From a virus, in the IMG/VR virus record IMGVR_UViG_3300027899_000553, positions 1 through 35,605 of that record: DNA of 35,605 nucleotides. One strand, given 5' to 3'. The notes under the pieces are model-generated. The model had not been told where the DNA came from and searched no databases. It worked only from the letters and a program-made list of their open reading frames with translations. The number at the start of each line of letters is the position of its first letter. Within the stretch, counting starts at the first letter, position 1. A program made the translations under genes and the position numbers. Of this stretch, positions 274 through 26,880 are shown piece after piece.

Positions 274-3200
274 ATGAATATTCTGGAATTAGATTCTTAT
301 AATCTTGCTGACGCTGTCAAATTTAATGATCAGTTAAACCCTCGTTTGTGGGGTGCAGACGAGCATCTTCGCCCAGAAGTGCGTGAACGTCTACTAGAAA
401 TAGCCCAAGATTTCCGCGAATTCTTAGGTGTCAAAGACCTAGACTTACAAGACATTACCATCAGCGGAAGCAATGCAGCATACACTTATACACCCAATAG
501 TGATATTGATCTGCACCTTGTAGTCCGCATGCCAGAAGATCCAGTATACCGTGAGCTGTTTGATGCCAAGAAGTTTCAATACAATGAACAGCACAATATC
601 AAAATTGGCGGCTACGATGTTGAGCTGTATGTTCAAGACGCAGACCATCCACACATCAGTCAAGGCATTTACAGTGTTGCAAACAATGACTGGGTACAAG
701 TGCCACGCAGAGTTAAATCTGTAGTAGATGACACTAGTACTAAAAACAAATTTGAAACAGTAGGACATCAGATTGAGCGGGCCATAGCGTCGGGCAGTTT
801 AAAACGTATCACACGCATGGCTGAAAAGATTAAAAAGATGCGCCAAACTGGACTTGAGAACCACGGCGAATTTGGCCCAGAGAATTTGGCATTTAAAATG
901 TTGCGTAGTCAAGGCAAGATTAAAGAATTATATGATGCTCGCAACGCCGCCAAGGATCGCGAACTAAGTCTCAAAGAAGAACCTAAGAAACCATTTGTGT
1001 ATGGATTTAAAGAAGACGCTGGTATGACCTGGGACGGAGTAGATCCAACTACCTGCATGTTCTTGAATGAACAAGATCCAGAACTGAGTGATGAAGAAAT
1101 ACTAAAAGACTTTATTGATTTTTGTGCAAAAGAATTAAAAATTGATCAACTGCCTGTAATTAAATTACGCAAAGATCCGCAATGGTCTGTAGTTAATAAA
1201 ACATTTGGTCGCTATATTAATGATAAACATTTATTAGAAGTGGCATGGGGTCAACGTCATATCATGGACATACTCCGTACTGTAGCGCACGAACTTACAC
1301 ATCGCCATCAACACGAACGTGATGGTGACCGCATGGGACCTGATGCTGGTGAAACTGGTAGTCCTTATGAAAACGAAGCCAATGCCCGTGCTGGTATCTT
1401 AATGCGCGACTATGCTCGCCTACATCCCGATTACTTTGCTGTTGGCCAAGTTGAAGAACCAACTGATGTTGATCAACAGTTAGATGAGAGTTTAAAAACC
1501 ACTGCTGGTGCTACCGCTGTGGTAGCTTGTTTGTTAGCCGGTGGTGGACTAAGTGGCTGTGCCACTCAACCACAACAAACTACACAACAAGTGTTGCGTA
1601 ATGCACAGGATGTTGGTCGAGTTACTATGGCTGCTAAAAACATCACTCGTGCCAATACTCAAGCCGAGGCGCGAGCAGAAATTGATACTGTGTTACGTGC
1701 TGGAGCTGGCGGCTATGGATCCGAAGGTGCGGCCAATGTTAGTAATATCTTAAGAATCTGGCGCAAGTTAAAAGGCAATCCACCGGTACCAGCAGAATCA
1801 GAGCCACCTGAGTATGGTCCTGCTGAACCACGTCAACGCATACGTCAGTATGAAAGTGCATCAGGTTACATTCCTACAAAGAAACAGGCTAAAGACCCAC
1901 GTTATAGCATGGCACTCACTGTGGACATTAAACCAGGACAAGTAGGCAAAGAAGCCAACAAGTTAGGATTAAAAACAGACCGGCAAGGCCATCCACAAGT
2001 GGCCAATCCAAATGGACTGGTAGAAGCATTGGCATTACAATTACAACAGTTCAAAGAAGGACGTGTTCCCAATCGTCCACTAAGTCAAGTTCCGGGTGAA
2101 GTAGAGGATGATCTGGGCAATCAAGAAGCCACAGGACCAGAGTTTCCACCTGAATGGCCCGAAGGCACCACCAAGGTTGATGTTAGCGACCTAACTGACT
2201 GGTATCGACTTGGACAAGATATCAGCGACATGGATGATGCCGACCCAGAAGATTACAATCAAGGCCCTCCGCAAACAGTAATAGTATTTCCAAGTGATGA
2301 AATTGAGCAGGGCTATTTGCCACAGTTCAAACGCCTGGGGTTAAAGACACACGATATGGATCCTGATGTCAAAGGCGGTGAAGATCTCACCGGTAAACAC
2401 CAACCTAAAAAAAAGTTAGCTGAACAAGAATTAGACGAAGTACGCATGGCTCCTAGCAATTTACAGCAGTGGGCCACTAGTCCAGAAGCCCAAGGTATAC
2501 GTGCTGGATTTGAAGCAGAACTAATTTTCCGCGATACTGTTAATAATGGTGACGACGATTATGATATGGAGCCCGACTATGACATGGACGAGCGTTGTGG
2601 TAGTATCCAGCAGATTATAGACTTTTTTGGCGGCGGCGATTATGGCATGAGTAGTCGTGCATTAGACCGTTTACAGGAACAGTTAGACGAAACATACTAC
2701 GAGTGGTACGATGAGCAGATGCAAAAAGACTTCAACAATGAAGCTGAAGACTTAATTCGTAAAGTATTAGTAGACGAGGATGATTGGGATCTTGACAACG
2801 AGATCCAAAAACAGTTGGTCATGCAGGATGATGTTAGCGACGACGAGCTAAATGCTATTATACAAGCTGGCGAAAAAGCTCCTAAATTTACGTCAAGTAA
2901 AGAACAAATATTATATGCAGAAGCTAATCCTTTGTATGAAAAGTATTTAGACGCACAAGAAGAAGCCGAAGGCTTGTTAGATGATTTAGTAGCAGATGAG
3001 GTGCGTAAACAAGGTGCAATCTGGGATGCTGCACTAGACGATTTCCGTGACAATTACAGTCTAGATGATGACTCAGGATTCTTTGATGATACTGGACTGC
3101 GTTGGATGAGTGATGTATCCAATAATTATGATGCAGAGTGGCCATATATGACTGGTGGCGGCCATAATGATGGATCGCGTGATTGGGAAGAGATTAGCGA

Positions 3201-5154
3201 CAGCTTAAACAAAGCTGTAGACATGCCAGTTAAAGCAAGTAGTGGCTATCACGGTACTACACGCAAAGAAGGCCTATGGATTGTGGAGCCAGACACCAGT
3301 TTACAACCAGATGATTCAGATGATTTTGGGTTAGAAATTGTAAGCCCACCAATGCCACTATTGGTAGCATTAAACAAACTACAAGAGGTGTGCGACTGGG
3401 CCAACAGTGATGAAGGCAATGCTTACACCAACAGTTCAACTGGACTACACATGGGTGTTAGTGTTCCCTACAAAGGCGGCGATGTCGACTATGTTAAATT
3501 AATCTTGTTCCTAGGTGACGAGTATGTACTACAACAGTTTGGCCGTGAAGCCAATACCTATTGTGCTAGTGCCATGAAAAAACTGCGTCAGAATGTAGGC
3601 AACAGTAATGCCCGTTATGCGGCCAATGTTACCAATGCTATGGAACTCATGCGTGGTAACTTGATCGAGTTGGCCAACAGAGAAATACAAAAAGGTGTTG
3701 GCGACAGCAAGTATACCAGTGCTCACATCCAAGACGGTTATATTGAATTCCGTAGTGCCGGCGGTGATTGGTTGGCTGAAGAGTCAGCAGACCCTGAAAA
3801 ATTATCCAGTACTATGTTGCGTTATGCTCGGGCTATGCAAATTGCCGCTGACCCTAGTGCTGAACGCAGAGAATATGCCAAGAAATTATACAAGTTAATT
3901 GCCCCCAACGGCGATGATCAACTAGCATTGTTTAGCCAATTTACTGCAGGCGAACTCGATGCTGAACAACTTAAAAAGCGTTGGGCTGAGAAGGCTATTG
4001 GTACAGAAAAGAAAATGAATCAACGTTGGAAACTGTATCAAAATGTTGACGGCCGCTGGGAACCAGTTCCGGGCGGTGAGTGGAATGGTTACGAAGAAGA
4101 TCAAGTTAAAAATGCTGTATGGAGCAAGTATGGTCGTGAAGCTCTTGACTCGGGTGAATATCAGTTGGTTAACATGGGCGAGCAATCGTGGGAAGTCTAC
4201 GATGTTAAAACTGGTAAGACACTTGAAATAGTCAAAGGCAAGAGCAAAGGCGAAGTTGCCGATCAAGTGTATGACAAGTATGTGGATCAAGGTATCGGCT
4301 TTCAAGTTCGTCCTTACGAAGATCCAGCAACTATGACACCACGTGCCAAGTTGGCCAAGCGTATTGTTAAACCAAAAGAAAAAGCTGACTGGGATGTTAT
4401 TTACAAGCCAACAGGCCGTGTAATTGATAATATCTTACATGTTGATAAAGAATCAGCACAACAATTATTAAAGAAAGTAGCTGTGCTGCACGACTTTAAG
4501 AATGCAGATGATTTAGAAATACGTCCACAAACAGCTGAAAAACCACAAAGTGCAGATGATCGCCAAGACAGTACAGACTTACAAGCAACCTTACAAAATA
4601 CCGAACGTGGCGAGTGGGAATTTTATCGCACAGAAACAGGCAATGTGATTGATCGTGTAAATGATGCTAGCCGTATGCAGGCTAATGCAGTTCGTCAAGA
4701 TATTGTTCGTAGATACGGACATCCTGATGCCAGTGTAGGTATGCGTAGAGTTGATCAATCGGGTGTTCAAGATGTTGGGCCCAATGTAGCACAAAACTTT
4801 GCCGAACCTGCTCCAGTAGATGCTACAGAAGTTCCACGTAATTGGGAATTTGTAGATCGCATAACTGGCCGGGTTATTCATAATATGACAAATGCCAGTT
4901 ACAACCAAGCCAATGTAGTGCAAGATAATCTTGAGCGTCAAAACCCTGATGCAGACATATACCTGCGTAGCGTAGCCAATTTAGAAGAAAATTTTGCTGA
5001 TGGGCGCAATCCACAAGATAAGGGCGATAGTGCTCGTCACGGAATACCCAAAGGTGCTAGTATTAGCTGGTTAGAACAAAACAAACATGCCAAAGGTCGT
5101 AAAGGTGAATTAATCCGTTGGCAGTTAAATATGCGTAAGGGAAAGAAAAAATGA
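274..5154 (+). CDS. Giant polyvalent protein: nucleotidyltransferase, metallopeptidase, amidoligase, repeat modules
   Basis: A 1626-residue multidomain protein. Residues 1-240 hold a nucleotidyltransferase-fold domain (GS at 65-66, SDIDLHL at 76-82, likely third acid E117). Residues 270-390 hold a zinc metallopeptidase (HELTH 339-343, downstream acids 366-368). Residues 408-429 look like a lipoprotein signal ending LSGC, but are internal. Residues 745-1170 resemble a putative amidoligase (GFEAEL, EIVSPP, GLHMGVSV). Residues 1252-1567 contain five copies of a W-aromatic-TGxxI module (nucleotides 4027-4974). The tail has RHGIPKGA and a basic end. This mix matches 'polyvalent proteins', which are thought to be packaged and injected with phage DNA. 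L-x-E sites occur at 403-405, 715-717, 720-722 and 1570-1572, near domain borders. It overlaps the next gene by ATGA. Domain calls rest on motifs only. Confidence 0.85.
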   Translation: MNILELDSYNLADAVKFNDQLNPRLWGADEHLRPEVRERLLEIAQDFREFLGVKDLDLQDITISGSNAAYTYTPNSDIDLHLVVRMPEDPVYRELFDAKKFQYNEQHNIKIGGYDVELYVQDADHPHISQGIYSVANNDWVQVPRRVKSVVDDTSTKNKFETVGHQIERAIASGSLKRITRMAEKIKKMRQTGLENHGEFGPENLAFKMLRSQGKIKELYDARNAAKDRELSLKEEPKKPFVYGFKEDAGMTWDGVDPTTCMFLNEQDPELSDEEILKDFIDFCAKELKIDQLPVIKLRKDPQWSVVNKTFGRYINDKHLLEVAWGQRHIMDILRTVAHELTHRHQHERDGDRMGPDAGETGSPYENEANARAGILMRDYARLHPDYFAVGQVEEPTDVDQQLDESLKTTAGATAVVACLLAGGGLSGCATQPQQTTQQVLRNAQDVGRVTMAAKNITRANTQAEARAEIDTVLRAGAGGYGSEGAANVSNILRIWRKLKGNPPVPAESEPPEYGPAEPRQRIRQYESASGYIPTKKQAKDPRYSMALTVDIKPGQVGKEANKLGLKTDRQGHPQVANPNGLVEALALQLQQFKEGRVPNRPLSQVPGEVEDDLGNQEATGPEFPPEWPEGTTKVDVSDLTDWYRLGQDISDMDDADPEDYNQGPPQTVIVFPSDEIEQGYLPQFKRLGLKTHDMDPDVKGGEDLTGKHQPKKKLAEQELDEVRMAPSNLQQWATSPEAQGIRAGFEAELIFRDTVNNGDDDYDMEPDYDMDERCGSIQQIIDFFGGGDYGMSSRALDRLQEQLDETYYEWYDEQMQKDFNNEAEDLIRKVLVDEDDWDLDNEIQKQLVMQDDVSDDELNAIIQAGEKAPKFTSSKEQILYAEANPLYEKYLDAQEEAEGLLDDLVADEVRKQGAIWDAALDDFRDNYSLDDDSGFFDDTGLRWMSDVSNNYDAEWPYMTGGGHNDGSRDWEEISDSLNKAVDMPVKASSGYHGTTRKEGLWIVEPDTSLQPDDSDDFGLEIVSPPMPLLVALNKLQEVCDWANSDEGNAYTNSSTGLHMGVSVPYKGGDVDYVKLILFLGDEYVLQQFGREANTYCASAMKKLRQNVGNSNARYAANVTNAMELMRGNLIELANREIQKGVGDSKYTSAHIQDGYIEFRSAGGDWLAEESADPEKLSSTMLRYARAMQIAADPSAERREYAKKLYKLIAPNGDDQLALFSQFTAGELDAEQLKKRWAEKAIGTEKKMNQRWKLYQNVDGRWEPVPGGEWNGYEEDQVKNAVWSKYGREALDSGEYQLVNMGEQSWEVYDVKTGKTLEIVKGKSKGEVADQVYDKYVDQGIGFQVRPYEDPATMTPRAKLAKRIVKPKEKADWDVIYKPTGRVIDNILHVDKESAQQLLKKVAVLHDFKNADDLEIRPQTAEKPQSADDRQDSTDLQATLQNTERGEWEFYRTETGNVIDRVNDASRMQANAVRQDIVRRYGHPDASVGMRRVDQSGVQDVGPNVAQNFAEPAPVDATEVPRNWEFVDRITGRVIHNMTNASYNQANVVQDNLERQNPDADIYLRSVANLEENFADGRNPQDKGDSARHGIPKGASISWLEQNKHAKGRKGELIRWQLNMRKGKKK
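4027..4974 (+). repeat. Five diverged protein repeats at the end of the polyvalent protein
   Basis: Repeats begin at protein residues about 1252, 1306, 1373, 1448 and 1524. Each starts W-[KEDE]-[LVF]-[YVI] and most continue with TG[RKN][VT][IL]. A helix with A/Q-rich positions and a short strand follow. Spacing is 54-76 residues. They are diverged at DNA level, so they are old duplications or recruited modules rather than recent tandem copies. A predicted beta-beta-alpha-beta unit is my inference. Confidence 0.7.
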
Positions 5155-5711
5155 AAGCTAGTGAATTTATAACAGAAATTAAAAAAGGTCAAAAGGACGC
5201 CAATGGTGTTACTAAGTGCTGGCCTGGATACGAAGCTAGTGGTACTAAGAAGGGCAAGAACGGACCAGTGCGTAATTGTATAAAAAAAGAAAATCAAGAA
5301 CTAGATGAAGAATTTGATCTTATCGAGTCTATTATCAATCAAATTGCTGATCATAATGGCGTAGATGCAGACGTAATCTGGAAAGACTTAGAGTCATTAA
5401 CAGAAGATGAATTATATGCATTTGCTGTAACTTCACAGCTTAACGAAGACTGGCAAAAAGTTAATAAAAAAGACAAAACAGATGGCATGAGTAAGAAAGC
5501 TGTTAGTGCTTATCGTCGTGAACACCCAGGCTCAAAATTAAAGACTGCTGTAACTACTAAGCCTAGTAAACTTAAAAAAGGCAGCAAAGCAAGTAAACGT
5601 CGTAAGAGTTATTGCTCACGTAGCCGTGGTCAAATGAACATGCACAATATTAGCTGTGCTAAGACTCCAGACAAAGCTATTTGCAAAGCACGTCGTCGTT
5701 GGAACTGCTAA
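5151..5711 (+). CDS. Cys/Lys-rich putative capsid-packaged protein (DUF5872-like C-terminus)
   Basis: 186 residues, overlapping the upstream gene by ATGA. The N-terminus MKASEFITE resembles the T4 internal-protein capsid-targeting sequence (MKTYQEFIAE in IPIII), with a possible protease site I7-T8-E9. A Cys module follows (C23 and C43, CWPGY). Further L-x-E sites occur at 51-53 and 97-99. The C-terminal part has YRREHPGSKL, a Lys/Arg-rich stretch and cysteines C155, C169, C178 and C186, a pattern I associate with a small DUF in T4-like marine phages. The basic, Cys-spaced tail suggests nucleic-acid or zinc binding, which is inference. Confidence 0.8.
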   Translation: MKASEFITEIKKGQKDANGVTKCWPGYEASGTKKGKNGPVRNCIKKENQELDEEFDLIESIINQIADHNGVDADVIWKDLESLTEDELYAFAVTSQLNEDWQKVNKKDKTDGMSKKAVSAYRREHPGSKLKTAVTTKPSKLKKGSKASKRRKSYCSRSRGQMNMHNISCAKTPDKAICKARRRWNC

Positions 5712-6622
5712 TGAGATTTAAAGAATTCATAACTGAATTTAAAAACCGTGTCAATCGAGACGGCATTACCATTGAGTATGAATTTCATAAAACCTATCCA
5801 ACTTCCAAAGATAAAAGATTATGGGTCAAAGCACTCGACGCCGGTGGTAGAGAAATGGGTTCTGTAAATTTTCGTAGCATTGGCAATGAGTGGGAGGGCG
5901 ATGATTTATACGTAGACGATCGTTTTCGTGGGCAAGGTATTGCCACTATAATGTATGATTTTGCTAAAGAAACACTTGGACGTATTGTTCCGAGTCTTGC
6001 TCAAACTGACAACGGCAAATCATTTTGGCAAGGAAAAGAAGTATGGGAAACCAAGTTAGATGAGCTCAACTATCCTGACGAACTCAATGTAAGTGATGCC
6101 TTACAGCAACACTTTATTAAACGTGGCTATCAAGTTGCCGGCGAAGGACGTGATCAAATAGCATTTGAAAGTCCTCGTGGTACTGTGGTCAAAGTAGTAG
6201 GTCTTGGTGATACCCACCGTGAAGATGTTGTCCGACAGTATGTCAAGTTCTTTGTGGCCAATCAACGCAATCCCTACTACCCACGCATATACAACACTGG
6301 TGAATTTCCAGTGGGCGATGAAACTTATTTTGTGTATGAACAGGAATACTTAACATACATATCCGACGAAGAAGAAGTGCTAGAATATATAGAAGACCTA
6401 ATGAAAGCAGTGCCTCGCGGTGAGCAAGCAATACACGCATTCCAACAAAATCGATCCCTGCCAAAATCACTAGACTCAGGTGAAGTTGACGGACTTGTCA
6501 TGGCCACCCAAGATCTTGAAGATCACCTGGGCGGATCTGCATCCTTGGATTTGAGCATGATTGAAAACATACGCCGCCGCAACAACGGACACTTGGTTAT
6601 TATGGATCCTTACAGTTTATGA
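5711..6622 (+). CDS. GNAT acetyltransferase fused to a kinase-like domain, with capsid-targeting-like leader
   Basis: 303 residues; ATG 5711 is chosen because it overlaps the upstream stop as TAATG. A longer TTG-started reading from 5681 is unlikely. The leader is MRFKEFITE. Residues about 15-110 are a GNAT domain (R71-x-x-G74-x-G76-IA, the acetyl-CoA pyrophosphate loop). A linker has L116-D117-E118, a possible prohead-protease site. Residues about 125-303 look like a minimal protein-kinase or aminoglycoside-phosphotransferase fold: Gly-containing strand pair, GTVVKVV with K161, FVYEQEYL as hinge, and HLVIMDP with D299 in the metal-binding position. No clear HxD catalytic loop is visible, so activity is uncertain. 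It could modify host proteins after delivery, as T4 Alt does by ADP-ribosylation. Confidence 0.75.
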   Translation: MRFKEFITEFKNRVNRDGITIEYEFHKTYPTSKDKRLWVKALDAGGREMGSVNFRSIGNEWEGDDLYVDDRFRGQGIATIMYDFAKETLGRIVPSLAQTDNGKSFWQGKEVWETKLDELNYPDELNVSDALQQHFIKRGYQVAGEGRDQIAFESPRGTVVKVVGLGDTHREDVVRQYVKFFVANQRNPYYPRIYNTGEFPVGDETYFVYEQEYLTYISDEEEVLEYIEDLMKAVPRGEQAIHAFQQNRSLPKSLDSGEVDGLVMATQDLEDHLGGSASLDLSMIENIRRRNNGHLVIMDPYSL

Positions 6623-7713
6623 GATTAAGAGAATTTGCACCCAGTCCTGAGCGTGATGACAACGATGATGTTCCAGATCAGTTAGTAGTGCTGGCCAATC
6701 GCTGGTGGAATGCCACGGATCGACAACCTCAAATTGAACACGTATTAAACAGCTTAGGATGGAGCATACATCAAGTTGAGTCAGAAGATGATGCGGTTCA
6801 ACTACAGCATCGTGATGGTACTACTTACTTTATCAGTGCTGATGATTTTGATCCTGATCTATTTGAAATAAGCGACGATCTACGCCGTAGTTATTTAAGC
6901 CGCGCCGGCAAGCATGTAGACCGTAGACTCGACCATATGGCTCGTGTGCGTGATAGACTTAACAAAGGTTATGAGATCTATCACGCTGATCGTCCTGCCA
7001 ACGGTAAGGCAATTGTAGATCGATTTGAAGCCGATACACCGGCATTGGCACGACAGTACTATGAACGGTTTATTCACAACTACGAGTCGGATGTGGACTT
7101 TGATTTAAGATTGCGTCGTGCGACTGGCCTAATGGAAATAGCCAAGATACCACAAGGTGATTTTGGAGATGCTGATACTATTACTCCGCCCAAGTATGCG
7201 GTAAAGAAAAAAGAGTTGCCTGGTGGTAGCGGATTTACCTATGCTGTGGGCAAACCCAACGCAGAAGATTTAGAAATCATGATCTTTGATGGCGATACAC
7301 TAGCTGCAGAACTTGATTTGTTTTATACCCGTGATGAAACTGACGCTTGGAGAGTTAGCACTGTGGCTGTTGATCCCAAATACCGTAGTCGTGGCCTGGG
7401 CAAAGCCTTGTATGGTATTGCTCTAAGCATATTACGACTTACTTTAGAAGCTGGCGATACACAGACCAAGCATGGACAACGCATGTGGTTAATGTTGAAC
7501 AGTATCCCCGGAGTTGAAGTCATGGGCTACAACATGGAACGCACTGAAAAATACAAACCCCGTCCGGGTGATAAAATTATATCACAAGCTAAAGACTGGA
7601 CAAGATATACGTTTCCTGTAAAACCAGGAACACACAGCATGCGTAGTGGACGTCATGGCACTGGTATGTATACCAGCCAAGCAAGCATGATAGCAAAGTG
7701 GACAGGCCGATGA
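6619..7713 (+). CDS. GNAT acetyltransferase domain protein with N-terminal unknown domain
   Basis: 364 residues, overlapping its neighbour by ATGA. The start MRLREFAPSPE keeps the MRxxEF leader pattern but lacks an I-x-E site. Residues 20-165 are an uncharacterised acidic and helical region. L171-M172-E173 lies exactly before the second half. Residues about 195-300 are a GNAT domain with VSTVAVDPKYRSRGLGKAL (R256, G259, G261). The C-terminus is basic and Ser/Gly-rich. Two adjacent acetyltransferases with similar leaders suggest a set of co-packaged modifying enzymes. The substrate cannot be told. Confidence 0.75.
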   Translation: MRLREFAPSPERDDNDDVPDQLVVLANRWWNATDRQPQIEHVLNSLGWSIHQVESEDDAVQLQHRDGTTYFISADDFDPDLFEISDDLRRSYLSRAGKHVDRRLDHMARVRDRLNKGYEIYHADRPANGKAIVDRFEADTPALARQYYERFIHNYESDVDFDLRLRRATGLMEIAKIPQGDFGDADTITPPKYAVKKKELPGGSGFTYAVGKPNAEDLEIMIFDGDTLAAELDLFYTRDETDAWRVSTVAVDPKYRSRGLGKALYGIALSILRLTLEAGDTQTKHGQRMWLMLNSIPGVEVMGYNMERTEKYKPRPGDKIISQAKDWTRYTFPVKPGTHSMRSGRHGTGMYTSQASMIAKWTGR

Positions 7714-7922
7714 GATTCTACGAAATATTGGAAGCTAAAAATCAAAACACAGCCGTGGCTGCTAAACTATGGACTGCTCCTGTACAGATTCGGCAACCAG
7801 GCTATGTTGGCCGTATTGATGTTACTGTTACAGCACCCAACGCACAACTAGCCCGTCAGTTAATGAAAGCACAATATGGTGTACAAGACTGGCACGTGGG
7901 TTCAGTAAAAGAAATAAAATAA
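7710..7922 (+). CDS. Small protein with capsid-targeting-like leader
   Basis: 70 residues from ATG 7710, which overlaps the upstream stop as ATGA. The N-terminus MRFYEILE contains I-L-E in the position of the leader cleavage site of its neighbours. The rest has one helix-rich body (APNAQLARQLMKAQYG) and reads like the small beta-alpha modules found in the larger neighbours. If cleaved after E8, the mature module would be about 62 residues. No function can be named. Confidence 0.65.
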   Translation: MRFYEILEAKNQNTAVAAKLWTAPVQIRQPGYVGRIDVTVTAPNAQLARQLMKAQYGVQDWHVGSVKEIK

Positions 7923-7958
7923 CTGTACTCGGTTACCTACTGGCGAAATAAACCCCGC

Positions 7959-7964
7959 TAAATA
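7959..7964 (+). promoter_or_regulatory. Late promoter box (CTAAATA) close to start codon
   Basis: CTAAATAC at 7958-7965 matches the T4-type late box and lies in a 46-base gap between genes, with only four bases between the box and the ATG at 7969. No Shine-Dalgarno sequence is present between them. Confidence 0.5.
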
Positions 7965-7968
7965 CAGC

Positions 7969-8295
7969 ATGACCAAACAATTTGTTCGTGTGATGACTGA
8001 TGTATACTGTGACTGGGCAGATGAAAATCCCATTTATCGTGTGTATGTCAATGATGAGCTGTTTGGTGAACGCAAGTGGCGCACTCCAGATGACCAGTAT
8101 CTTGAAGAAATGATACAGATCAACGGTGAGCCAGGAGATTATGTAATAAAATATGAATTGGTTGGACCCAAAACAGCCAGATTAAAAGTTGAAAATTATC
8201 GTGTTACACGTGGGCCCGGTAGAATTACAGATAATAAAGTAAGAATATACAATAACAAGTTTAGTATTTTAAGGAAAAACAATGAGAGCCAATGA
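7969..8295 (+). CDS. Conserved small T4-like phage protein, unknown function
   Basis: 108 residues. The pattern YRVYVNDELFGERKW followed by QYLEEMIQINGEPGDY and alternating hydrophobic residues predicts a compact beta-sandwich-like protein. I associate this pattern with small proteins of marine T4-like phages near structural genes, but no function is known to me. It has its own late promoter box and overlaps the next gene by 14 bases. Confidence 0.75.
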   Translation: MTKQFVRVMTDVYCDWADENPIYRVYVNDELFGERKWRTPDDQYLEEMIQINGEPGDYVIKYELVGPKTARLKVENYRVTRGPGRITDNKVRIYNNKFSILRKNNESQ

Positions 8296-8485
8296 ATTTA
8301 TTGTGGAAGAAGCCAGTACGTGTAGCACTACCAGTGGTAGTATAGCCACAGTAGCACAGCCACTAGGTGAGTTGATCACAAGAAATGGCGGATCTTTCTT
8401 TTCTGGTAAATACATGAATAGCGCGGATCCGTATCCAAATACACCTGCCTATATGAAAAAAGGAAAGAAACGCCGTGCTAGCTGA
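8282..8485 (+). CDS. Short leader-bearing peptide, unknown function
   Basis: 67 residues. The start MRANEFIVE has the capsid-targeting-like leader with I-V-E. The body is rich in Ser, Thr and Gly and ends in a basic tail KKGKKRR. A Shine-Dalgarno-like AAGGA lies just upstream of ATG 8282. Its last 11 bases overlap the Dps-like gene in another frame. A TAAATA box at 8407-8412 inside it could serve the next gene. The fold cannot be inferred; it may be an internal head peptide. Confidence 0.65.
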   Translation: MRANEFIVEEASTCSTTSGSIATVAQPLGELITRNGGSFFSGKYMNSADPYPNTPAYMKKGKKRRAS

Positions 8486-8915
8486 TTTATTGAAAACTTA
8501 TTTGGCATCAACTTTTGCTTATTACTTAAAAGCACACTATTTTCATTGGAACGTCGAAGGTCCAGACTTCGGCGAATTACACGAATTTTTCAGCAACATC
8601 TATGAAGATGCATTTGGAGCAGTAGATCCTATCGCTGAATATATTCGTACCACAGAAGAATACGCACCTGGAAGCCTCTCACGCTTTCATGAATTAACAC
8701 AAATACAGGACCAGACCAAGGTTCCTCGTGCCCGTTTAATGTTAGAAGAATTACTCGCAGATACACAGACCATGATTGATCTAAGCAAACAAGTTTTTGA
8801 TGCTAGTACAGCAGAAGGTCGTGAGGATGTAGCCAATTTTGCTGCTGAGCGCCAAAGTGCTCATGGCAAGTACAGATGGCAATTACGGAGTTATTTGAAA
8901 GACGCAAGGGCATGA
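8475..8915 (+). CDS. Dps-like ferritin-fold protein
   Basis: 146 residues from GTG 8475, close to the length of a short Dps. HFHWNV-type helix A (AHYFHWNVEGPDF) and LHEFF...YEDAFGAVDPIAEYI match the Dps family, which forms DNA-binding, iron-oxidising dodecamers. Ferroxidase positions: H24, H36, D51 and E55 are kept, but S40 stands where Dps usually has Asp. There is no basic N-terminal tail of its own and no capsid-type leader. The start overlaps the preceding short leader gene, so translation is coupled. A phage Dps could protect DNA in the head or bind host DNA; the context favours the virion. Confidence 0.85.
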   Translation: MLADLLKTYLASTFAYYLKAHYFHWNVEGPDFGELHEFFSNIYEDAFGAVDPIAEYIRTTEEYAPGSLSRFHELTQIQDQTKVPRARLMLEELLADTQTMIDLSKQVFDASTAEGREDVANFAAERQSAHGKYRWQLRSYLKDARA

Positions 8916-9661: not shown

Positions 9662-12286
9662 ATGTTTGCATTAGACCTATTCAACAACGATTATGAACGA
9701 CGCCTTGCAGAAGGTGCTGTTGACCAATTAGAACAACGTCGCATTGACGACTTGGCTATGAAAATGGACGACTTGGTTGCTCGTGCAAAACAGGTTAAAG
9801 ATCCTGAACACAAGGCTGCATTGGTCAAAGAATTCCAAAAAGTTAAAGCTGAACGTGACAGTTATTTCAAAATCAAAGATGAAGGCATGGGTTATGGCGG
9901 TTTAGGGGAAGAGAATGTTAACGAAGGCGCAATGAAAGACATGCTGTGGGATATGTGTGAACGTATGGAACGCGACGAGTTTATCAATCATTGTGTAAGC
10001 GAATGGGGATGGGATCCAGTTGAAATGGGCGAATTCTGGGACAGCATCAACGGTCCTTTAGACGAAGTTGGAATTGGGCAAGACATTGTTAATCGAACAG
10101 AAAAGATGGCTCGTGCAACTCCTAGTACTCCTGCAGGCAAAGTAGCAAGCACAGTTAAGAATGCCGCCAAGTGGTTAGCTGGCAAAGGTGGTCCTGGTAA
10201 AGAAGGCCCAACATACGAAGGTAAGGATGGTGCATGGCAAACAGAAACTCCATGGAAAGAAACTCCCAAGGCTAAATCTGGCAAGCCTGTGGATCCACGC
10301 GGTGAAGTAACACATCTCAGTGATGTTGCCCGTCGTGAAGCTGTATTAAAAGCACAAGCTCAAAAAAAAAATCCCAACAAATTAGACGAAAGTCAACAGT
10401 TACATCAAGGTGATCCTATTGTGGTCACGGCACCCAACGAATTTGAAGGTGCTACAGGTGAGATTTATGAGTTTAGCCCAAGTGGTAAGTTTGTTATTGT
10501 TGACTTATACAATCATGGTAAACACAGTATGCACTTATCAGATGTTGAATACAATCAATATGCTGATGATCAAGATGAAGATGATTGGTACGACGAAGAA
10601 GATACCATGGAAGGTTGGCAGGACTTTAATAAGGTAGAGCCATATGCTGTATGTTTGGCTGGCAAGCCAGTTAAAAAGTTTGACTACTATGAACAAGCTC
10701 GTCGCTTCCACGATAACTGGAAACAGAAGTTATACCGTGAAGGCAACAAAGAAAAAGCAGACAAGATTACACTGATGCCGCTAAATCTTGATGAAGGCAA
10801 GTGGGATTATCCAAAAAGTATGACCACCATACCAAAATATGACAAAGACGCCGATGATTATTTGGCTCTACATCAAGGTGCAAAATTTGCTAGAAAAAAC
10901 AAAGAAGATAGAAAAGAGTGGCGCAAGGCAGCAAAAGCACAGGCACATAAAGATTTAATGACTGGCAAAAAAGATGTAGCGGAAGCAGGGTCGCCAGCAC
11001 AGCAGGCCGCTATTGCAATCGCTATGAAAAAAGCTGGCAAGAAGCCTAAGTCAGTAGATGAGGATTTTAATACTGCCTCATTGGGCGACGCAGAATGTCC
11101 CAAATGTCATCAACATGATTTATCATGGGAAGAACGCACTCAGCATGTAAGTTGCAGAAATTGCGGATCAAAATTTAAAGAAAGTGGTAAAGAAATAAAA
11201 CAAGTAGACGAACTTGATGCCAGCACATTAAAAAGTTATGCAGACAAGCGTGGCGCACAAGTTGCCGCAATGCAAGCAGACAATCCTAATCCTACTACAG
11301 GTAGTAAAGAGTGGATTCAACAAGCTGTACCAGCACAGCAAGTAAGTCTTGCAAAGCGTAAGATTGCTCGTAAAGAGCGGCAAGCAGGCGTAACCGAAGA
11401 CACAGGCAGTTGGATTGTGTATGATCCAGAGACTCGACAAATCAAGAAGCGTTTTAAGACACACACAGCCGGCAAGAGTTATGCCAAGGTACACGGTTTA
11501 GGATTTGCTAGTAGTGAATACTACTTTGACAATATTAAAGAAAAAGCTGTAGCGGAGGGGCAACAACCAATGAATCGTAATGCTGTAATACAAAAACTTG
11601 AAGCTATCTATACCAAACTATACCAAGACGAAGATCCAGAAAGTTATGATCTTCCTGCGGCAGTTGATTACTGGCACAGTTTGCCCGCAGATCAACTTGC
11701 TATGGAATTTGAAGATGCCATTGATAGATTAAAACAATCACGTGGTAGTATTGATGAAGCACAAACAGATTATCAAAAACGTCGTGCTCGTGAGCGTGAT
11801 GTAGATGCTGGTCGTCCAGTAAAGCCATTGCCACGTAACCCACAAACTGACTATGCTCGTAAACGTGCCAAAGACAAGCGTGATATGGAACTTGGTGAAG
11901 ACGAGGTCGATGATTTTGTCAAAGCCGGTGGTAAGATTACCTACGGTAAACCACAAAAAGGGCCACGCCGTCCAGGACTAAGTTTGGCCAGTCGCCACAT
12001 CGGCGGTGGTGGTGATAAGATGAAGCCAAGTCGCACAGGCCGTGCAGGTGCAGCAATAGGCGGTAAGCCAGTCGGCATTAAAGAAGAACAAGATAACTCT
12101 GGAGTAGAACGTGCTATCCTTAATCGTATCATGGTTGCACATACAGACTTGTTAAAACAGTTTGGTCCACAAAAAGTTATGCAAGCCGCGGAAGAAGTTG
12201 CTTACAATGTAGGCGATGTAGATGAAATTGGCACCAGTGATGTTAGTGCTTATGTCAATCAAGTTCGACAAATTCTTGGTGCCTAA
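9662..12286 (+). CDS. Large multi-module protein, candidate head polyprotein
   Basis: 874 residues with no enzyme domain recognised. Short modules follow one another: helical N-terminus 1-80; acidic helical 85-130; KOW/SH3-like strands 247-297; PYAVCLAGKP module 326-374; Ala/Lys helix 442-462; a zinc ribbon (C479, C482, C498, C501); LDASTLKSYADKR module 518-575; WIVYDPETRQIKKRF module 584-625; acidic helix 640-690; Lys/Arg-rich 700-800; final helical 810-874. Sites of the form (L/I/V)-x-E occur at many junctions: 15-17, 133-135, 241-243, 376-378, 439-441, 465-467, 515-517, 577-579, 630-632, 697-699 and 806-808. The T4 prohead protease gp21 cleaves after (L/I)-x-E, so processing into small internal head proteins is a plausible inference. 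Confidence 0.8.
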   Translation: MFALDLFNNDYERRLAEGAVDQLEQRRIDDLAMKMDDLVARAKQVKDPEHKAALVKEFQKVKAERDSYFKIKDEGMGYGGLGEENVNEGAMKDMLWDMCERMERDEFINHCVSEWGWDPVEMGEFWDSINGPLDEVGIGQDIVNRTEKMARATPSTPAGKVASTVKNAAKWLAGKGGPGKEGPTYEGKDGAWQTETPWKETPKAKSGKPVDPRGEVTHLSDVARREAVLKAQAQKKNPNKLDESQQLHQGDPIVVTAPNEFEGATGEIYEFSPSGKFVIVDLYNHGKHSMHLSDVEYNQYADDQDEDDWYDEEDTMEGWQDFNKVEPYAVCLAGKPVKKFDYYEQARRFHDNWKQKLYREGNKEKADKITLMPLNLDEGKWDYPKSMTTIPKYDKDADDYLALHQGAKFARKNKEDRKEWRKAAKAQAHKDLMTGKKDVAEAGSPAQQAAIAIAMKKAGKKPKSVDEDFNTASLGDAECPKCHQHDLSWEERTQHVSCRNCGSKFKESGKEIKQVDELDASTLKSYADKRGAQVAAMQADNPNPTTGSKEWIQQAVPAQQVSLAKRKIARKERQAGVTEDTGSWIVYDPETRQIKKRFKTHTAGKSYAKVHGLGFASSEYYFDNIKEKAVAEGQQPMNRNAVIQKLEAIYTKLYQDEDPESYDLPAAVDYWHSLPADQLAMEFEDAIDRLKQSRGSIDEAQTDYQKRRARERDVDAGRPVKPLPRNPQTDYARKRAKDKRDMELGEDEVDDFVKAGGKITYGKPQKGPRRPGLSLASRHIGGGGDKMKPSRTGRAGAAIGGKPVGIKEEQDNSGVERAILNRIMVAHTDLLKQFGPQKVMQAAEEVAYNVGDVDEIGTSDVSAYVNQVRQILGA

Positions 12287-12924
12287 TGCGGGCTAGCGAC
12301 TTTGAAATTCGCAATCATGACAAACTAGACAATATTCTAGTACGTCTTTGTGAAATGGTAATCCAAGGTCAAAAACGAGATCCTGCAGAATATGGCATGG
12401 TAGCCGCAGCTGTATTAGATCCTGACAACAACTGTGTGGCTGCATTAAATTATCGTAACAATCAAGGTGATGTGCATGGTGAACGGGCCGCAATAGATGC
12501 TTATCACGATCGTTTTGGTGAGATACCCGAAGGTAGTATTATCCTAACCACCTGTAGTCCTTGCACCGAGCCCATGCTAGATCGTGTAGGATCGAGTTGC
12601 CAAGATTTGATTAATAGTACACCAGTGCATAAAGTTTACGCTGGTTACAGAGATCCTAGCCAACAGACTGAAGCTGGCGACAAAACATACCACTTAGAAA
12701 TTACCGGCAATAAAAAAATACAAGCACTATGTCAAGCCTTTGCTGGTACTTGGCTCAAAGATGAATTAAACGAACTGAGTTTCTTAGGTAGCCCATGCAC
12801 CAAAGACTGCTCAGGTCATCGTGCTGGTTATGCCTGGAGTCAAAGCAAAGGTGGACGTGTTGCACAAAGTCCATTTAGCCCAAGTTTTAATAATGGTAGT
12901 CAACTTCATGTGGACGGTAAGTAA
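12286..12924 (+). CDS. Nucleotide/nucleic-acid deaminase-fold protein with Cys-rich C-terminal module
   Basis: 212 residues, TAATG overlap with the previous gene. Residues 15-145 carry the zinc deaminase signature: H64-G-E66 and, later, C90-S-P-C93, with alternating strands and helices, as in CDA/dCMP or RibD-type deaminases. A linker L161-N162-E163 precedes a small module SFLGSPCTKDCSGHRAGY (C171, C175). The start MRASDF resembles the leader of the neighbours, but no I-x-E is present. The substrate is unknown; a packaged deaminase acting on host nucleic acid or nucleotides is speculation. Confidence 0.75.
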   Translation: MRASDFEIRNHDKLDNILVRLCEMVIQGQKRDPAEYGMVAAAVLDPDNNCVAALNYRNNQGDVHGERAAIDAYHDRFGEIPEGSIILTTCSPCTEPMLDRVGSSCQDLINSTPVHKVYAGYRDPSQQTEAGDKTYHLEITGNKKIQALCQAFAGTWLKDELNELSFLGSPCTKDCSGHRAGYAWSQSKGGRVAQSPFSPSFNNGSQLHVDGK

Positions 12925-18569: not shown

Positions 18570-18682
18570 TTGCAGTAATTTTAGTACTCATTGAGGTTGT
18601 GGCTTTGTTTATATTAATCATTGCCTTGGCAGGAGCCATTGGTAAACTTGCAGGTAAATTCTCTGACAATGACCCAAGATAA
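18566..18682 (+). CDS. Small single-span membrane protein (38 residues)
   Basis: ATG 18566 overlaps the clamp stop as ATGA and the frame ends at 18680-18682, inside the start of dpdA. Residues 2-28 are almost all Ile, Leu, Val, Ala (MIAVILVLIEVVALFI), a single membrane span, followed by GKLAGKFSDNDPR. Overlap with both neighbours and a clean start argue that it is real. Its role is unknown; a small inner-membrane protein or lysis-related peptide are guesses. Confidence 0.6.
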   Translation: MIAVILVLIEVVALFILIIALAGAIGKLAGKFSDNDPR

Positions 18683-20366
18683 TCTAACCGTAAAACAAAA
18701 CGACTATGCGGTATTCCTACCGGCTATCAGTGGGTTCTATGCTACTTACATAGGTAAACAACGAGATCCTGTAAACGGCCCTTATGTAGACCCCAAGACT
18801 CGCATGCCAGCAGGTATGCAGGACATGGAAATGATGAACTGGCTTAACAGTAGCAAAGGTCTATTTCCATACAAGTGGAGTCTATACTCAGGTGGTCATG
18901 CCAACTTAGATTTGAACAAGCAAGATTGGTCTGAGGATATGGTTCGTAGTCGTGAGCCTGGCACAGTAATGCTAGGTGACTCGGGCGGATTCCAGATCGC
19001 TAAAGGCCTGTGGGAAGGTGAATGGCGCGACCCGACCAGCCCAGAAGTTTTGTCCAAGATGGCCGAACTTAAGGCCAAAGGTGTTGAGCATATATTAGAT
19101 CTTAAACCAGATGGTACACCCAAGCACGACAAGAATGGCAACAAAAAGTATGCTAAAATTGACCATGTTAAAAACTATCAAAATCTGTTAGACGCCGCAC
19201 AGAAGAAGCGTGAAGCGGTACTTAAATGGTTAGATGGTGTTGCTGATTATGGCATGACCTTAGACATACCAACTTGGGTTATACATGACAAAAATGCCAG
19301 CGACAAGTGTGGAATTACTACATTAGAAGAAGCCGTAGCGGCTACCAAGTATAACAATGACTACTATATGCGTTATCGCAAAGGTGCCAAGAATGGTGGT
19401 ATGAAAGTGCTTAATGTTTTACAAGGTGCTAATCATGCCGATGCAGACCGTTGGTACGACACTATGAAACACTATTGTGATCCCACTGTGTATCCTGACA
19501 CGCACTTTGATGGTTGGAGTATGGGTGGGCAGAACATGTGTGATGTCCACTTGGTATTAAAACGTTTAGTGGCATTACGACACGATAACTTGTTACAAGA
19601 AGGTGTACACGATTGGATGCACTTCTTGGGCACAAGTAAATTAGAATGGGCAGTATTACTTACAGACATTCAAAGAGCCGTGCGTAAGTATGTTAATCCA
19701 AGTTTTACTATCTCGTTTGACTGTGCAAGCCCATTCCTAGCTACTGCTAACGGACAGGTGTATCATCATATTGACCTTCCACACAACGACAAATGGTGTT
19801 ATCGTATGAGTCCTATTGCCGATGACAAGAAGTATAGTACAGACACTCGCCCATATGGACAAGCAGTTGTAGCAGATGGCCTAGTTGATCACTTTGACGA
19901 AAGTCCAATTAGTCTGCAATTACAAATGAAAGATGTTTGCTACTATCAACCCGGTATGCTTAACAAAATTGGCAAGGAAGGCAAGACATCGTGGGATTCG
20001 TTTAGCTATGCATTGTTAATGGGGCATAATGTTTGGATGCACTTAGAAGCGGTACAACGTGCCAACCGTGAATACGATAACGGATCGTTCCCTGCTATGA
20101 TGTGGCACCAAAATGGTGATCATGCTCGATTTAAAGACATTGTAGATGCTATCTTTGCCACACCGGACCGTGCGGAAGCCGACGCTATCATCGAACACTA
20201 CGACCGTTATTGGATGGACATTATCGGTACTCGTGGATTCAAAGGCAAGAAGGCCAAAAATGCACACAGCCAATTTAATGCCTTGTTTGAAGAAGATATT
20301 GCAAACAGCGAAAGCGAAGACGAAGTAGAATTTGACGAGTCTAAATTAGATAAACTGGAGGCCTAA
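18669..20366 (+). CDS. dpdA: 7-deazaguanine DNA transglycosylase DpdA (TGT paralog)
   Basis: 565 residues from ATG 18669, inside the end of the preceding small gene; an upstream TTG is less likely. DpdA exchanges guanine in DNA for a 7-deazaguanine base, as tRNA-guanine transglycosylase does in tRNA. TGT landmarks: DSGGFQ 104-109 (general-base Asp), VLNVLQGAN and FDGWSMGGQNM in place of the VQGG and AIGGL segments, and SFDCASP with D351 as the likely nucleophile. The zinc-binding CxCxxC of TGT is absent, as is usual in phage forms. It is far longer than bacterial TGT (about 375). folE, queD and queE lie downstream in the same window, which supports the call. Confidence 0.85.
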   Translation: MTQDNLTVKQNDYAVFLPAISGFYATYIGKQRDPVNGPYVDPKTRMPAGMQDMEMMNWLNSSKGLFPYKWSLYSGGHANLDLNKQDWSEDMVRSREPGTVMLGDSGGFQIAKGLWEGEWRDPTSPEVLSKMAELKAKGVEHILDLKPDGTPKHDKNGNKKYAKIDHVKNYQNLLDAAQKKREAVLKWLDGVADYGMTLDIPTWVIHDKNASDKCGITTLEEAVAATKYNNDYYMRYRKGAKNGGMKVLNVLQGANHADADRWYDTMKHYCDPTVYPDTHFDGWSMGGQNMCDVHLVLKRLVALRHDNLLQEGVHDWMHFLGTSKLEWAVLLTDIQRAVRKYVNPSFTISFDCASPFLATANGQVYHHIDLPHNDKWCYRMSPIADDKKYSTDTRPYGQAVVADGLVDHFDESPISLQLQMKDVCYYQPGMLNKIGKEGKTSWDSFSYALLMGHNVWMHLEAVQRANREYDNGSFPAMMWHQNGDHARFKDIVDAIFATPDRAEADAIIEHYDRYWMDIIGTRGFKGKKAKNAHSQFNALFEEDIANSESEDEVEFDESKLDKLEA

Positions 20367-20572
20367 TGTCCTGGGAAAAAAGAATTAAACATTTGGAAGA
20401 AGCACACCAAGCACTCAACAAAAGAATTGATGGTTTGGAAAGCACCGGAGTATTCAACGACGTTGAAATAAACGATTTGAAGAAACAACGGTTGCAATTA
20501 AAGCAACAAATTGTTATACTTAAACAAGATCATCAACCCTCAATCCATTATAATACGGAACAAAATGATTAG
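20366..20572 (+). CDS. Small coiled-coil protein (YdcH/DUF465-like)
   Basis: 68 residues, TAATG overlap with dpdA. It is a two-helix hairpin with heptad pattern: HLEEAHQALNKRIDGLE, short turn, then DLKKQRLQLKQQIVILK. The second helix resembles the LKKxRLxLKDxI motif of DUF465/YdcH proteins, which are small and of unknown function. It overlaps the next gene by 8 bases. Confidence 0.65.
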   Translation: MSWEKRIKHLEEAHQALNKRIDGLESTGVFNDVEINDLKKQRLQLKQQIVILKQDHQPSIHYNTEQND

Positions 20573-21080
20573 AGCTGGACACGAAGAAGTAAGTTTCTTT
20601 ATAGGAACCGAAGTAGAACACACTCCTGCGTTTGGGCGTCGAACATTGTTTGTAGTAGGTGTACAAGATTCGCAGATTATTCAACAAGAAGCCAAGAACA
20701 ATGATTGCGAGCATATCTATTTTGGTGCCAATCAAAGTTTTCCTGGGTTAGCAACCAACGATGCAGATGGATGGCAAGATTGGGAAGTCATGGTACAAGA
20801 CTGTTTAGAAGCTGGTTGGTTATGTACACTTGACTTAGATGTTGATCAAGTTGAAGGCTTGCTTGAATCAGCACTAGTAGAGTTTCACAACTTTATCCCA
20901 ATGATTTCCGTTAAACTTCCTTACATTAAACAACTTGGATACAATGCTACTCTTAAAATTGATGACAAAGACTTTGCAGCAACAAACCCAGGCGTCTGGT
21001 GCCACTCGTTACACGACTTACAAAAACGTGAGGTGTTTACTGACTGGTCTAAATATACCAAGGACGAGATAATACAATGA
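20565..21080 (+). CDS. Conserved phage protein of unknown function
   Basis: 171 residues from ATG 20565; a longer reading from 20511 would run through the coiled-coil gene. Notable segments are FFIGTEVEHTPAFGRRTLFV, HIYFGANQSFP, LCTLDLDVDQVEGLLE, FIPMISVKLPYI and NATLKIDDKDFAATNPGVW. Alternating strands and helices with TLKIDD near the end suggest an alpha/beta enzyme-like fold, perhaps a barrel. I associate the family with T4-like phages but not with any function. Neighbours are DNA-modification genes, so a role there is possible. Confidence 0.7.
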   Translation: MIRAGHEEVSFFIGTEVEHTPAFGRRTLFVVGVQDSQIIQQEAKNNDCEHIYFGANQSFPGLATNDADGWQDWEVMVQDCLEAGWLCTLDLDVDQVEGLLESALVEFHNFIPMISVKLPYIKQLGYNATLKIDDKDFAATNPGVWCHSLHDLQKREVFTDWSKYTKDEIIQ

Positions 21081-24850: not shown

Positions 24851-25663
24851 TTGACAACATTTACAAGTGAAGATTTAAAAAACGCATTAACTAGTTCTAA
24901 ATTAGTAGAAGAAGCACCATATCATCCTGGATATGAAGATGCCGCTGTAAAAATGAGCGACAAAGGTTACGAAGAAGCAAACTTGGCAGATGCTATTCGC
25001 TTTAATATGAAACGTGATAAGAAACGCTTTTGGGCCGGAGATAACATCAGCGATTACCTACACGAAGGTGATAAAGAAATCTTAATCAACGAAGCCGCAG
25101 AGGCTTTTGAAAAGGTATTAGATACCTTGCTGATTGATCGTGAAAACGATCCTAATAGTAAAGGCACAGCACGTCGCTTGGCCAAGATGTATTTTAATGA
25201 AATCATGGCAGGTCGTTACGAACCTGCACCAGACGCTACAGCGTTTCCTAATGACAGCAAGGATAGATATGAAGGTATGTTGGTCGTCCGTAGTGAACTA
25301 CGCAGTATGTGTAGTCATCATCACCAGCCTGTCAGTGGTGTCGCTTACATTGGCATTATTGCTGCTAACAAACTTATCGGTCTTAGCAAGTATACTCGCA
25401 TTGCTCAGTGGTGTGCTCGTCGTGGTACACTTCAAGAAGAACTCTGCAACGACATCGCAAGAGAAATAATGCGGGCCACTGATAGTGAAAATGTTGGTGT
25501 TTACATACAAGCTACACACGGTTGCTGTGAGAATCGTGGCATCATGGCACATTCGAGTTTAACACAGACAACGGTTCTTCGAGGTGTTTTCCAAAAGGAT
25601 CCAGCAACTAAGAAAGAGTTTATGGATAATATTAAATTGCAACAGGAGTTTGCGCCAAGATGA
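24851..25663 (+). CDS. folE: GTP cyclohydrolase I
   Basis: 270 residues from TTG 24851, with GGAG nearby. It makes dihydroneopterin triphosphate from GTP, the first step to 7-deazaguanines (and folate). Signature: SMCSHHHQPVSGVAYIGII with zinc ligands C154 and H157 area, KLIGLSKYTRIAQWCARRGT, and ATHGCCENRG with C225 as third ligand. CEHH of cellular enzymes reads CSHH here. An N-terminal extension of about 50 residues precedes the core (E. coli FolE has 222). It has its own strong promoter, so precursor supply is probably early. Confidence 0.95.
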   Translation: MTTFTSEDLKNALTSSKLVEEAPYHPGYEDAAVKMSDKGYEEANLADAIRFNMKRDKKRFWAGDNISDYLHEGDKEILINEAAEAFEKVLDTLLIDRENDPNSKGTARRLAKMYFNEIMAGRYEPAPDATAFPNDSKDRYEGMLVVRSELRSMCSHHHQPVSGVAYIGIIAANKLIGLSKYTRIAQWCARRGTLQEELCNDIAREIMRATDSENVGVYIQATHGCCENRGIMAHSSLTQTTVLRGVFQKDPATKKEFMDNIKLQQEFAPR

Positions 25664-26364: not shown

Positions 26365-26880
26365 ATGAATACCATCGAAATACCAATCCCTCGACAATAC
26401 AAATATACCAGTACCAAAGAATACCACGACGCATTTCCCTGCGCTTATCGTCAGTGGAGGGCCGATAGTCATTGTAACTTAATTCATGGTTACAGTTTTA
26501 GTATGAAATTTTACTTTGGTACTGACCATTTGGATGTACGCAATTGGGCTGCCGACTATGGTGGATTAAAAGAATTAAAACAAGTATTAGAAAGCCAGTT
26601 CGATCATACATTACTGGTAGCAGAAGATGATCCTGAACTTGAAACATACAAGTTATTGCAGGCAAAGAATCTAGCCAAATTAACTATCTTACCAAAACTT
26701 GGATGCGAAGGCCTGGCGGATCAATTGTATAATTTTGTAAACGGTGTTTACATTCCAGATAATTGGGGCCCAGGCGAAGCGGCACGTTTATGGTGCTATC
26801 GTGTAGAAGTACGTGAAACCCAAAGTAACATGGCATTCCGCGAGGGTCATCGCGAATGGAACGAAGATTTATTTGCCTGA
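26365..26880 (+). CDS. queD: QueD-family 6-carboxytetrahydropterin synthase
   Basis: 171 residues with its own promoter and RBS. QueD turns dihydroneopterin triphosphate into 6-carboxytetrahydropterin. Evidence: FPCAYRQWRADSHC then LIHGYSFSMKFYF, DYGGLKELK, FDHTLL (D80, H81), GCEGLADQLY (C114, E115) and RVEVRETQSNM (E151). Compared with E. coli QueD, the catalytic-Cys position is kept (C37), but two zinc histidines appear as Tyr: AAH is CAY (Y28) and HGH is HGY (H41, Y43). Length is greater than the 121 of E. coli QueD. Phage QueD proteins of this type exist, so it is likely functional, with an altered metal site. Confidence 0.88.
   Translation: MNTIEIPIPRQYKYTSTKEYHDAFPCAYRQWRADSHCNLIHGYSFSMKFYFGTDHLDVRNWAADYGGLKELKQVLESQFDHTLLVAEDDPELETYKLLQAKNLAKLTILPKLGCEGLADQLYNFVNGVYIPDNWGPGEAARLWCYRVEVRETQSNMAFREGHREWNEDLFA

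Follow-up and report, generated by a model that had tools for sequence, protein, structure and literature searches.

The virus record IMGVR_UViG_3300027899_000553 is complete at 35,605 bases and is called the window here. It encodes a T4-type DNA polymerase whose closest relatives in annotated phages belong to jumbo phages and are no more than about 50% identical to it. The subject of this analysis is a short N-terminal leader that opens several plus-strand genes of the window and recurs, with different bodies behind it, in related contigs. The initial annotation placed it at the start of five consecutive genes. All five N-termini are present in the sequence, namely MKASEFITE (5151..5177), MRFKEFITE (5711..5737), MRLREF (6619..6636), MRFYEILE (7710..7733) and MRANEFIVE (8282..8308). 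The genes are clustered and not all consecutive, as a leaderless gene at 7969-8295, with relatives in five other contigs at 53-58% identity, intervenes. MRLREF contains the first half of the tag and lacks an [IL]xE site, and its block EFAPSPERD is also found inside longer proteins. The set is larger than first described and includes a gene that starts at 12286 with MRASDFEI (12286..12309) and encodes a deaminase-like protein (RibD-type match E 5e-4, far below the cut-off). The start of the 5711 gene is an ATG 10 codons inside its longest open reading frame (ORF), which begins at 5681, and the 7710 start is an ATG 4 codons inside an ORF beginning at 7698.

The bodies behind these leaders differ. 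MKASEFITE precedes a Cys-rich modular body (5178..5711) that ends in DUF6321 (Pfam E 5e-9), the module DWQKVNKKDKTDG... from about 5448. MRFKEFITE is followed by a GNAT acetyltransferase module (5738..6052; Pfam Acetyltransf_1 E 2e-5, above the cut-off), an LDE site at the module boundary (6056..6064) and a kinase-like module (6065..6622; phrog_15752 protein kinase E 2e-5; L005 homologue E 6e-7). The 6619 gene contains two boundary sites, LFE (6859..6867) and LME (7129..7137), the latter directly before a second GNAT module (7138..7713; Pfam Acetyltransf_1 E 3e-4, above the cut-off). The two acetyltransferases named in the initial annotation thus pass the Pfam cut-off, while its kinase-like domain, set against protein kinases of the T7 gp0.7 type, is supported more weakly: the best Foldseek matches are APH(2'') and Ser/Thr kinases at E 6e-4 with low template modelling (TM) scores, on a model whose mean predicted local distance difference test (pLDDT) score is 67. 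A sequence search of the PDB with the GNAT-kinase protein returned no relative at a convincing E-value. A Ferritin/Dps-like gene at 8475-8915 (Pfam Ferritin E 1e-20; phrog_3636 DNA binding protein) sits within the leader cluster and has no leader.

Relatives of the window were retrieved by homology using the 5711 and 6619 proteins, and nine contigs were read from stored records. The main protein set comprises the window and 23 related contigs with 1791 called genes. The pattern M[KR]xx[ED][FIL][ILV]xE opens 55 of these genes against 0.22 expected, and the tag half alone opens 131 against 5.2, the expectations being derived from internal Met positions of the same proteins. Because retrieval was by homology, copies of the same family inflate the raw leader count. 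Additional leader contigs come from a scan by DNA pattern only, and their figures hold among the matches listed. Across the 221 distinct leaders listed, comparison of the bodies from the end of the leader onward gives 77 families, and joining them by any similarity gives 34; since this set was partly retrieved by the leader pattern, 77 is a count of diversity and not of enrichment. Leaders terminate in [ILV]xE, most often IxE. The short leader MRFYEILE has the relatives MRFYEISE and MRFQEIIE, and partial tags without a site also occur (MRLREFAPS, MRASDFEI, MKAKEIYP). The leader-bearing group appears to consist of uncultured T4-type giant phages that tag dozens of unrelated proteins. The annotated-phage collection contains no match for the 5711 protein, the L005 kinase module or the 9662 protein described below, and the late-promoter motif [CG]TAAATA[CT] is not enriched upstream of leader genes (6/123 linked genes vs 19/545 others). 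Two features of the leader genes were recorded separately. At codon 2 of the 221 listed leaders, Arg is encoded by AGA in 171 of 213 cases, a strong preference beside the start. Adjacent pairs of leader genes coding for about 125-135 amino acids, with motifs like YRFGVAxA, are found again well away from the main cluster, at about 325384-326150 in G017, about 629-1401 in G013 and at many loci found by DNA pattern (e.g., L104, L105, L134); genes of this type apparently account for a large share of the biggest leader family (95 members listed).

A peptide shared by otherwise unrelated proteins is one mark of a T4-type capsid-targeting sequence. In the T4 record NC_000866, ipII and ipIII begin with MKTYQEFIAE, ipI with MKTFKEFTST and alt with MELITELFDE, while in gp23 the residues SFLTE precede the mature start at A. 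The likeness to T4 internal proteins proposed in the initial annotation is borne out by this record, as MKTYQEFIAE and MRFKEFITE have the core EFIxE in common. The first ten residues of IPIII are reported to be necessary and sufficient for packaging, with residues 4 and 7 important for targeting and residues 8 and 10 for processing, and gp21 is reported to cleave after L/I-x-E (PMC9026906). The EF[ILV]xE core conserved here has its F, I/V/L and E at the places of IPIII residues F7, I8 and E10; Tyr4 has no strict counterpart, its position being mostly Ala and sometimes Phe, Tyr or Leu. The leaders follow the L/I-x-E rule of gp21, a protease of family S77, and the gp23 of relatives reads YLRE before N. 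Leaders with Val at P3 extend beyond the published T4 rule.

No late gene is recognisable within the 35.6-kb window, so the protease was looked for in relatives. The two largest, G013 and G017, both encode an S77 protease (PF03420, E ~1e-25); their DNA polymerases share 94.5% and 93.3% identity with that of the window. The neighbors of the protease there read as portal, core, scaffold and gp23 by position and sequence. Among the matches listed from the DNA-pattern scan, S77 is present in 7 of the 8 tested leader contigs above 125 kb. It is found in 9 of 11 leader contigs above 150 kb and in 8 of 8 above 190 kb, again among the matches listed. The gp21-type protease that the initial annotation proposed to seek in the rest of the genome is encoded by close relatives and by further leader contigs.

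The [ILV]xE site is not confined to leaders and recurs between modules inside long proteins. Comparing all 1791 proteins with one another by BLAST yielded 951 non-redundant module starts. In leader-linked proteins, an aligned [ILVFM]xE stands at the module start of both partners in 334 of 805 cases, against 21.4 at shifted positions, whereas the remaining proteins are at background (11/146 vs 13.8 expected). Control motifs, including [ILVFM]xD, [ILVFM]xK and [KR]xE, are at most 1.2-fold enriched at module starts; the pattern xxE reaches 2.1-fold and contains the [ILVFM]xE site itself. The window's own sites are kept in 175 of 308 different upstream contexts, against 10 of 449 at control positions. 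The LDE between GNAT and kinase-like modules is replaced elsewhere by VAE, VAE, LTE, IAE, LKE or INE (6/6 contexts), LFE of the 6619 protein is matched by [ILVMF]xE in 9/9 different contexts, with direct leader fusions in L005 and L017, and LME in 12/12. The kinase-like module shows how partners change: it is preceded by KLDE behind GNAT in the window, by the leader MRFAEFVAE in L003, by the leader MRAQEFIAE in L005, and elsewhere by VAE, LTE, INE or LKE. Similarly, the module IKKGQKDANG that follows the leader of the 5151 gene follows LNE or INE inside other proteins. In the predicted structure of the 5711 protein, both the leader and the GNAT-kinase junction are low-confidence stretches, with pLDDT below 50 at the junction site.

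Two large proteins of the window have the same arrangement. The first is a 1626-amino-acid multi-domain protein (274..5154, plus strand; phrog_36119 E 5e-41). It has a nucleotidyltransferase module behind MNILE (Pfam NTP_transf_2 E 9.5e-4, just below the cut-off), a weak amidoligase match (Pfam Amidoligase_2 E 2e-4, just below the cut-off), a metallopeptidase-like motif HELTH found by eye and a C-terminal NFADG module. Its LDE site at residues 403-405 (1480..1488) is aligned with [ILVMF]xE in 4/4 different upstream contexts. The second is an 874-amino-acid modular protein (9662..12286, plus strand), in which IDE (residues 697-699) is kept in 5/5 contexts and IKE (residues 806-808) in 8/15. As the sites mark module boundaries in these neighboring multi-domain proteins, the prohead protease probably releases modules from them as from polyproteins. 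The long protein at 9662-12286 and its relatives often open with M[FLI]xLDLF or M[IL]xxDLFE, a beginning like that of T4 Alt (MELITELFDE).

The gene at 8282 encodes a 67-amino-acid peptide in which the leader is followed by EASTCSTTSGSIATVA (8309..8356). This stretch mimics the N-arm of the mature major capsid protein, as recognized by a family hidden Markov model (HMM) and by alignment to gp23. At the position equivalent to the T4 cut, the gp23 of G013 and G017 reads YLRE followed by NASSGSTVSGNIATL, where cleavage is predicted. The best copies of the 8282 family read EFIAE followed by NASAGATGSGSIATV, with the arm directly behind the leader. When the family HMM was run against the 1791 proteins, the only matches outside the family with E <0.01 were the two gp23 proteins (E 5e-4 and 8e-4), and the next match had E 0.05. 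A similar relation is found in the cultured cyanophage S-CREM2, in which the gp23 arm matches the virion protein gp160 at 75% over 24 residues (E 9.5e-9). By this likeness, the 67-amino-acid peptide may dock on the inner shell through its capsid-type N-arm.

Homologs of some of these modules have been found in virions of cultured cyanophages. Part of S-CREM2 gp137 shares 70.8% identity with the DUF6321 module of the 5151 gene. The gp137 gene is located between the terminase genes, and published mass spectrometry of purified S-CREM2 virions detected its product by 4 unique peptides (Table 3 of PMC10665884). The reported virion table also contains gp160, gp156, gp154 and gp14 (PMC10665884). By eye, gp160 has CWPGY and KDACYHK modules and gp156 is a nucleotidyltransferase like the start of the 274 gene. 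A leader with F[ILMVF]xE is carried by 5 of 52 S-CREM2 virion proteins and 1 of 167 undetected ones (p 0.003); when structural proteins are set aside, the counts are 5/28 and 1/167 (p 2e-4). The single leader match among S-SZBM1 virion proteins is a cytidylyltransferase that begins with MRFRQFIIE (PMC9146016).

It is highly probable that the leader is a T4-type capsid-targeting sequence acting together with S77 cleavage, polyprotein processing and ejection of the cargo. The T4 leader match, the protease in relatives and the published cyanophage virion data support the capsid-targeting interpretation of the initial annotation, which had overlooked the site-less nature of MRLREF, the sites between modules and the short peptide that copies the capsid N-arm. 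Computation here covers the leader with its enrichment, the sites at module boundaries, the relatives' protease and the arm match, and homologous modules in virions come from published mass spectrometry of a cultured cyanophage. For the phage of the window, we infer packaging, cleavage, injection and export in the following form. The first half of the tag in proteins of the type M-[RK]-A/F-x-E-F-[ILV]-x-E would draw them into the prohead core during head assembly, where the S77 (gp21-type) protease would cut after [ILV]xE and free the mature cargo. Partly tagged proteins (MRLREF..., MRASDFEI...) may be packaged uncut or by other means. The long neighboring proteins are probably polyproteins from which the protease would release GNATs, a kinase-like domain, a nucleotidyltransferase and small basic modules rich in Cys, while the 67-amino-acid peptide may dock on the inner shell. 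The cargo would then be ejected alongside the DNA into the next host, and any module whose cut exposes a Sec-, lipoprotein- or twin-arginine (Tat)-like signal may be exported by that host.

Several points weigh against this reading. The window itself lacks late genes, and two relatives of 156-158 kb (G008 and G010, possibly fragments) have no S77 match. The residue behind the predicted cut is not limited to the small ones of the T4 examples. Most [ILVFM]xE sites inside folded domains presumably stay uncut, and the overall density of the motif is not raised (ratio 1.16 in these proteins vs 1.14 elsewhere), so that the evidence lies in the position of the sites and not in their number. The initial annotation had tied its proposal to the presence of such proteins in virions. 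On this point, homologous modules and leader-shaped proteins do occur in virions of S-CREM2 and, for one protein, S-SZBM1, but the leader is not enriched among S-SZBM1 virion proteins (1/29 vs 4/163, p 0.56). The S-CREM2 leader pattern was set after several of its sequences had been seen, and the S-CREM2 authors are reported to note that abundant infection proteins might have co-purified. The virion support comes from homologs in other cultured phages and not from the phage of the window or its close relatives.

The best surviving alternative is that the leader is indeed a targeting and cleavage signal, while internal [ILV]xE is merely linker and the long proteins act uncut as polyvalent proteins. 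We hold this account to be rather unlikely. It agrees with the unraised density; polyvalent proteins are known and some are reported to be transferred whole (PMC5512222), and recombination at flexible acidic linkers could by itself put sites at module edges. It does not explain why modules with a different upstream partner, leader/module swaps included, still have an aligned [ILVFM]xE, nor why the similarly acidic [ILVFM]xD is not enriched, and the GNAT-kinase junction that contains a site is a low-confidence stretch of the model. It is improbable that the leader is an uncut docking tag for another assembly or host partner: the site-less partial tags suggest that the first half may act alone, yet many copies retain the half that matches T4 gp21 specificity, and the capsid arm comes after the leader as it does in gp23. 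A shared start produced by recent duplication or a recombination hot spot at gene starts is very unlikely and was rejected, for although the genes are clustered, the modules shuffled and ATGA gene overlaps favor K/R as the second residue, such overlaps put no constraint on residues past position 2, the bodies fall into many families, and synonymous positions vary freely across the 221 leaders (Ala GCA/GCC/GCT, Glu GAA/GAG, Phe TTT/TTC), which makes the leader a protein-level signal and not a DNA element.

Some sites are closely followed by segments that resemble export signals, starting 1-5 residues past the site. In the 274 protein, the LDE site stands immediately before an embedded lipoprotein-signal-like segment, SLKTTAGATAVVACLLAGGGLSGC (1489..1560), whose hydrophobic region starts 3 residues past the site and which ends in a lipobox-like LSGC. 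Internal signal-like segments were defined by a basic residue, a hydrophobic stretch and a signal-peptidase-like end. In linked proteins, 14 of 16 such segments have an [ILVMF]xE site no more than 6 residues away, against a background of 0.099 for positions after K/R and 3/21 in other proteins. By eye, the 16 segments reduce to about five groups of relatives, of which four lie near a site, and the effective sample is therefore small. An earlier sliding-position test gave 0.0145 vs 0.0053; it was diluted by overlaps and was redone by the distance from site to hydrophobic region. In L009 (184-2034), the leader is followed at once by a twin-arginine-like segment, MRAKEFLAE then ITRRDFLRGVG, and in L109 (2992-3609), MRAVEFIAE is followed by the twin-arginine-like IDRRGFLGALG, which continues into a GH19 domain; both segments are below the cut-off of Pfam TAT_signal. 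GH19 wall-hydrolase domains, one with LysM, stand behind signal-like segments in L108, L109, L161 and L166. As these segments start just behind sites, cutting could unmask export signals. We tentatively suggest that the protease splits tagged polyproteins in the capsid and creates Sec-, lipoprotein- or Tat-like N-termini, so that the cargo would be exportable only in the next host and would act in its envelope (e.g., GH19/LysM wall hydrolases, lipoproteins); at present we hold this to be rather doubtful.

Elsewhere in the window, a 7-deazaguanine-like set was recognized by eye (18621-20366, 20511-21080, 24851-25663, 26365-26880 and 32394-33269). It comprises a TGT-like protein with SGGFQ together with FolE-, QueD- and QueE-like proteins and, from these resemblances, suggests modified DNA. 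An NCBIfam search with the products of 18621-20366 and 20511-21080 gave no match.

The arrangement can be compared with several known systems. Like T4 IPI, IPII and IPIII, it combines a short leader on unrelated bodies with a gp21-type protease, here found in relatives. It differs in that the leader is one residue shorter and mostly MRAxEF, the cargo families are more numerous and larger, and the site is also found where modules meet inside proteins. The polyvalent proteins described from phages and conjugative elements (Iyer et al., 2017, PMC5512222) are multi-domain and presumably travel in the capsid; their domains include kinase, ParB and metallopeptidase-like ones. The 5711 protein (GNAT and kinase-like) and the 274 protein (nucleotidyltransferase and weak amidoligase) likewise have at least two unrelated domains, and a portal, as expected of a portal-terminase phage, was read by eye in relatives. 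Processing of polyvalent proteins is proposed to be mainly by built-in metallopeptidases, whereas the sites here fit a prohead protease acting in trans and a T4-type tag. The regulatory proteins reported from S-CREM2 and S-SZBM1 virions are of similar kinds (cytidylyltransferase, kinase, S-adenosylmethionine hydrolase, small Cys-rich modules), and leaders such as MKNFSSFLTE or MRFRQFIIE open several of them; they were reported as puzzling, and the available text of those reports mentions no shared leader or protease sites. DarB of phage P1, a very large antirestriction protein, is also reported to carry an N-terminal signal that can package a foreign protein (PMC9024508). That signal is located in residues 1-30 of a single large protein, and no array of differently bodied tagged genes is reported in the available text. 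The open-access literature, in the portions available, gave no account of such a leader outside T4-related phages combined with protease-delimited polyproteins, and for capsid targeting sequence together with cyanophage it gave only a T4 review; as the scope was open-access, the novelty of the finding is provisional.

As an analogy for what the cargo may do in the host, T4 offers Ip1-3, which are reported to act against type IV restriction enzymes (PMC12373910), and Alt, a modifier of RNA polymerase (PMC5512222). If the reading proposed here is true, the nine-residue tag and the S77 protease would allow injected effectors to be listed from sequence in a large and mostly uncultured group of T4-type phages, in which many of these candidate effectors are currently unnamed. 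It would also account for the kinases, cytidylyltransferases and other enzymes in cyanophage virions, and the tags could act as head-loading signals in laboratory phages. Head maturation in these phages would then also process polyproteins into effectors.

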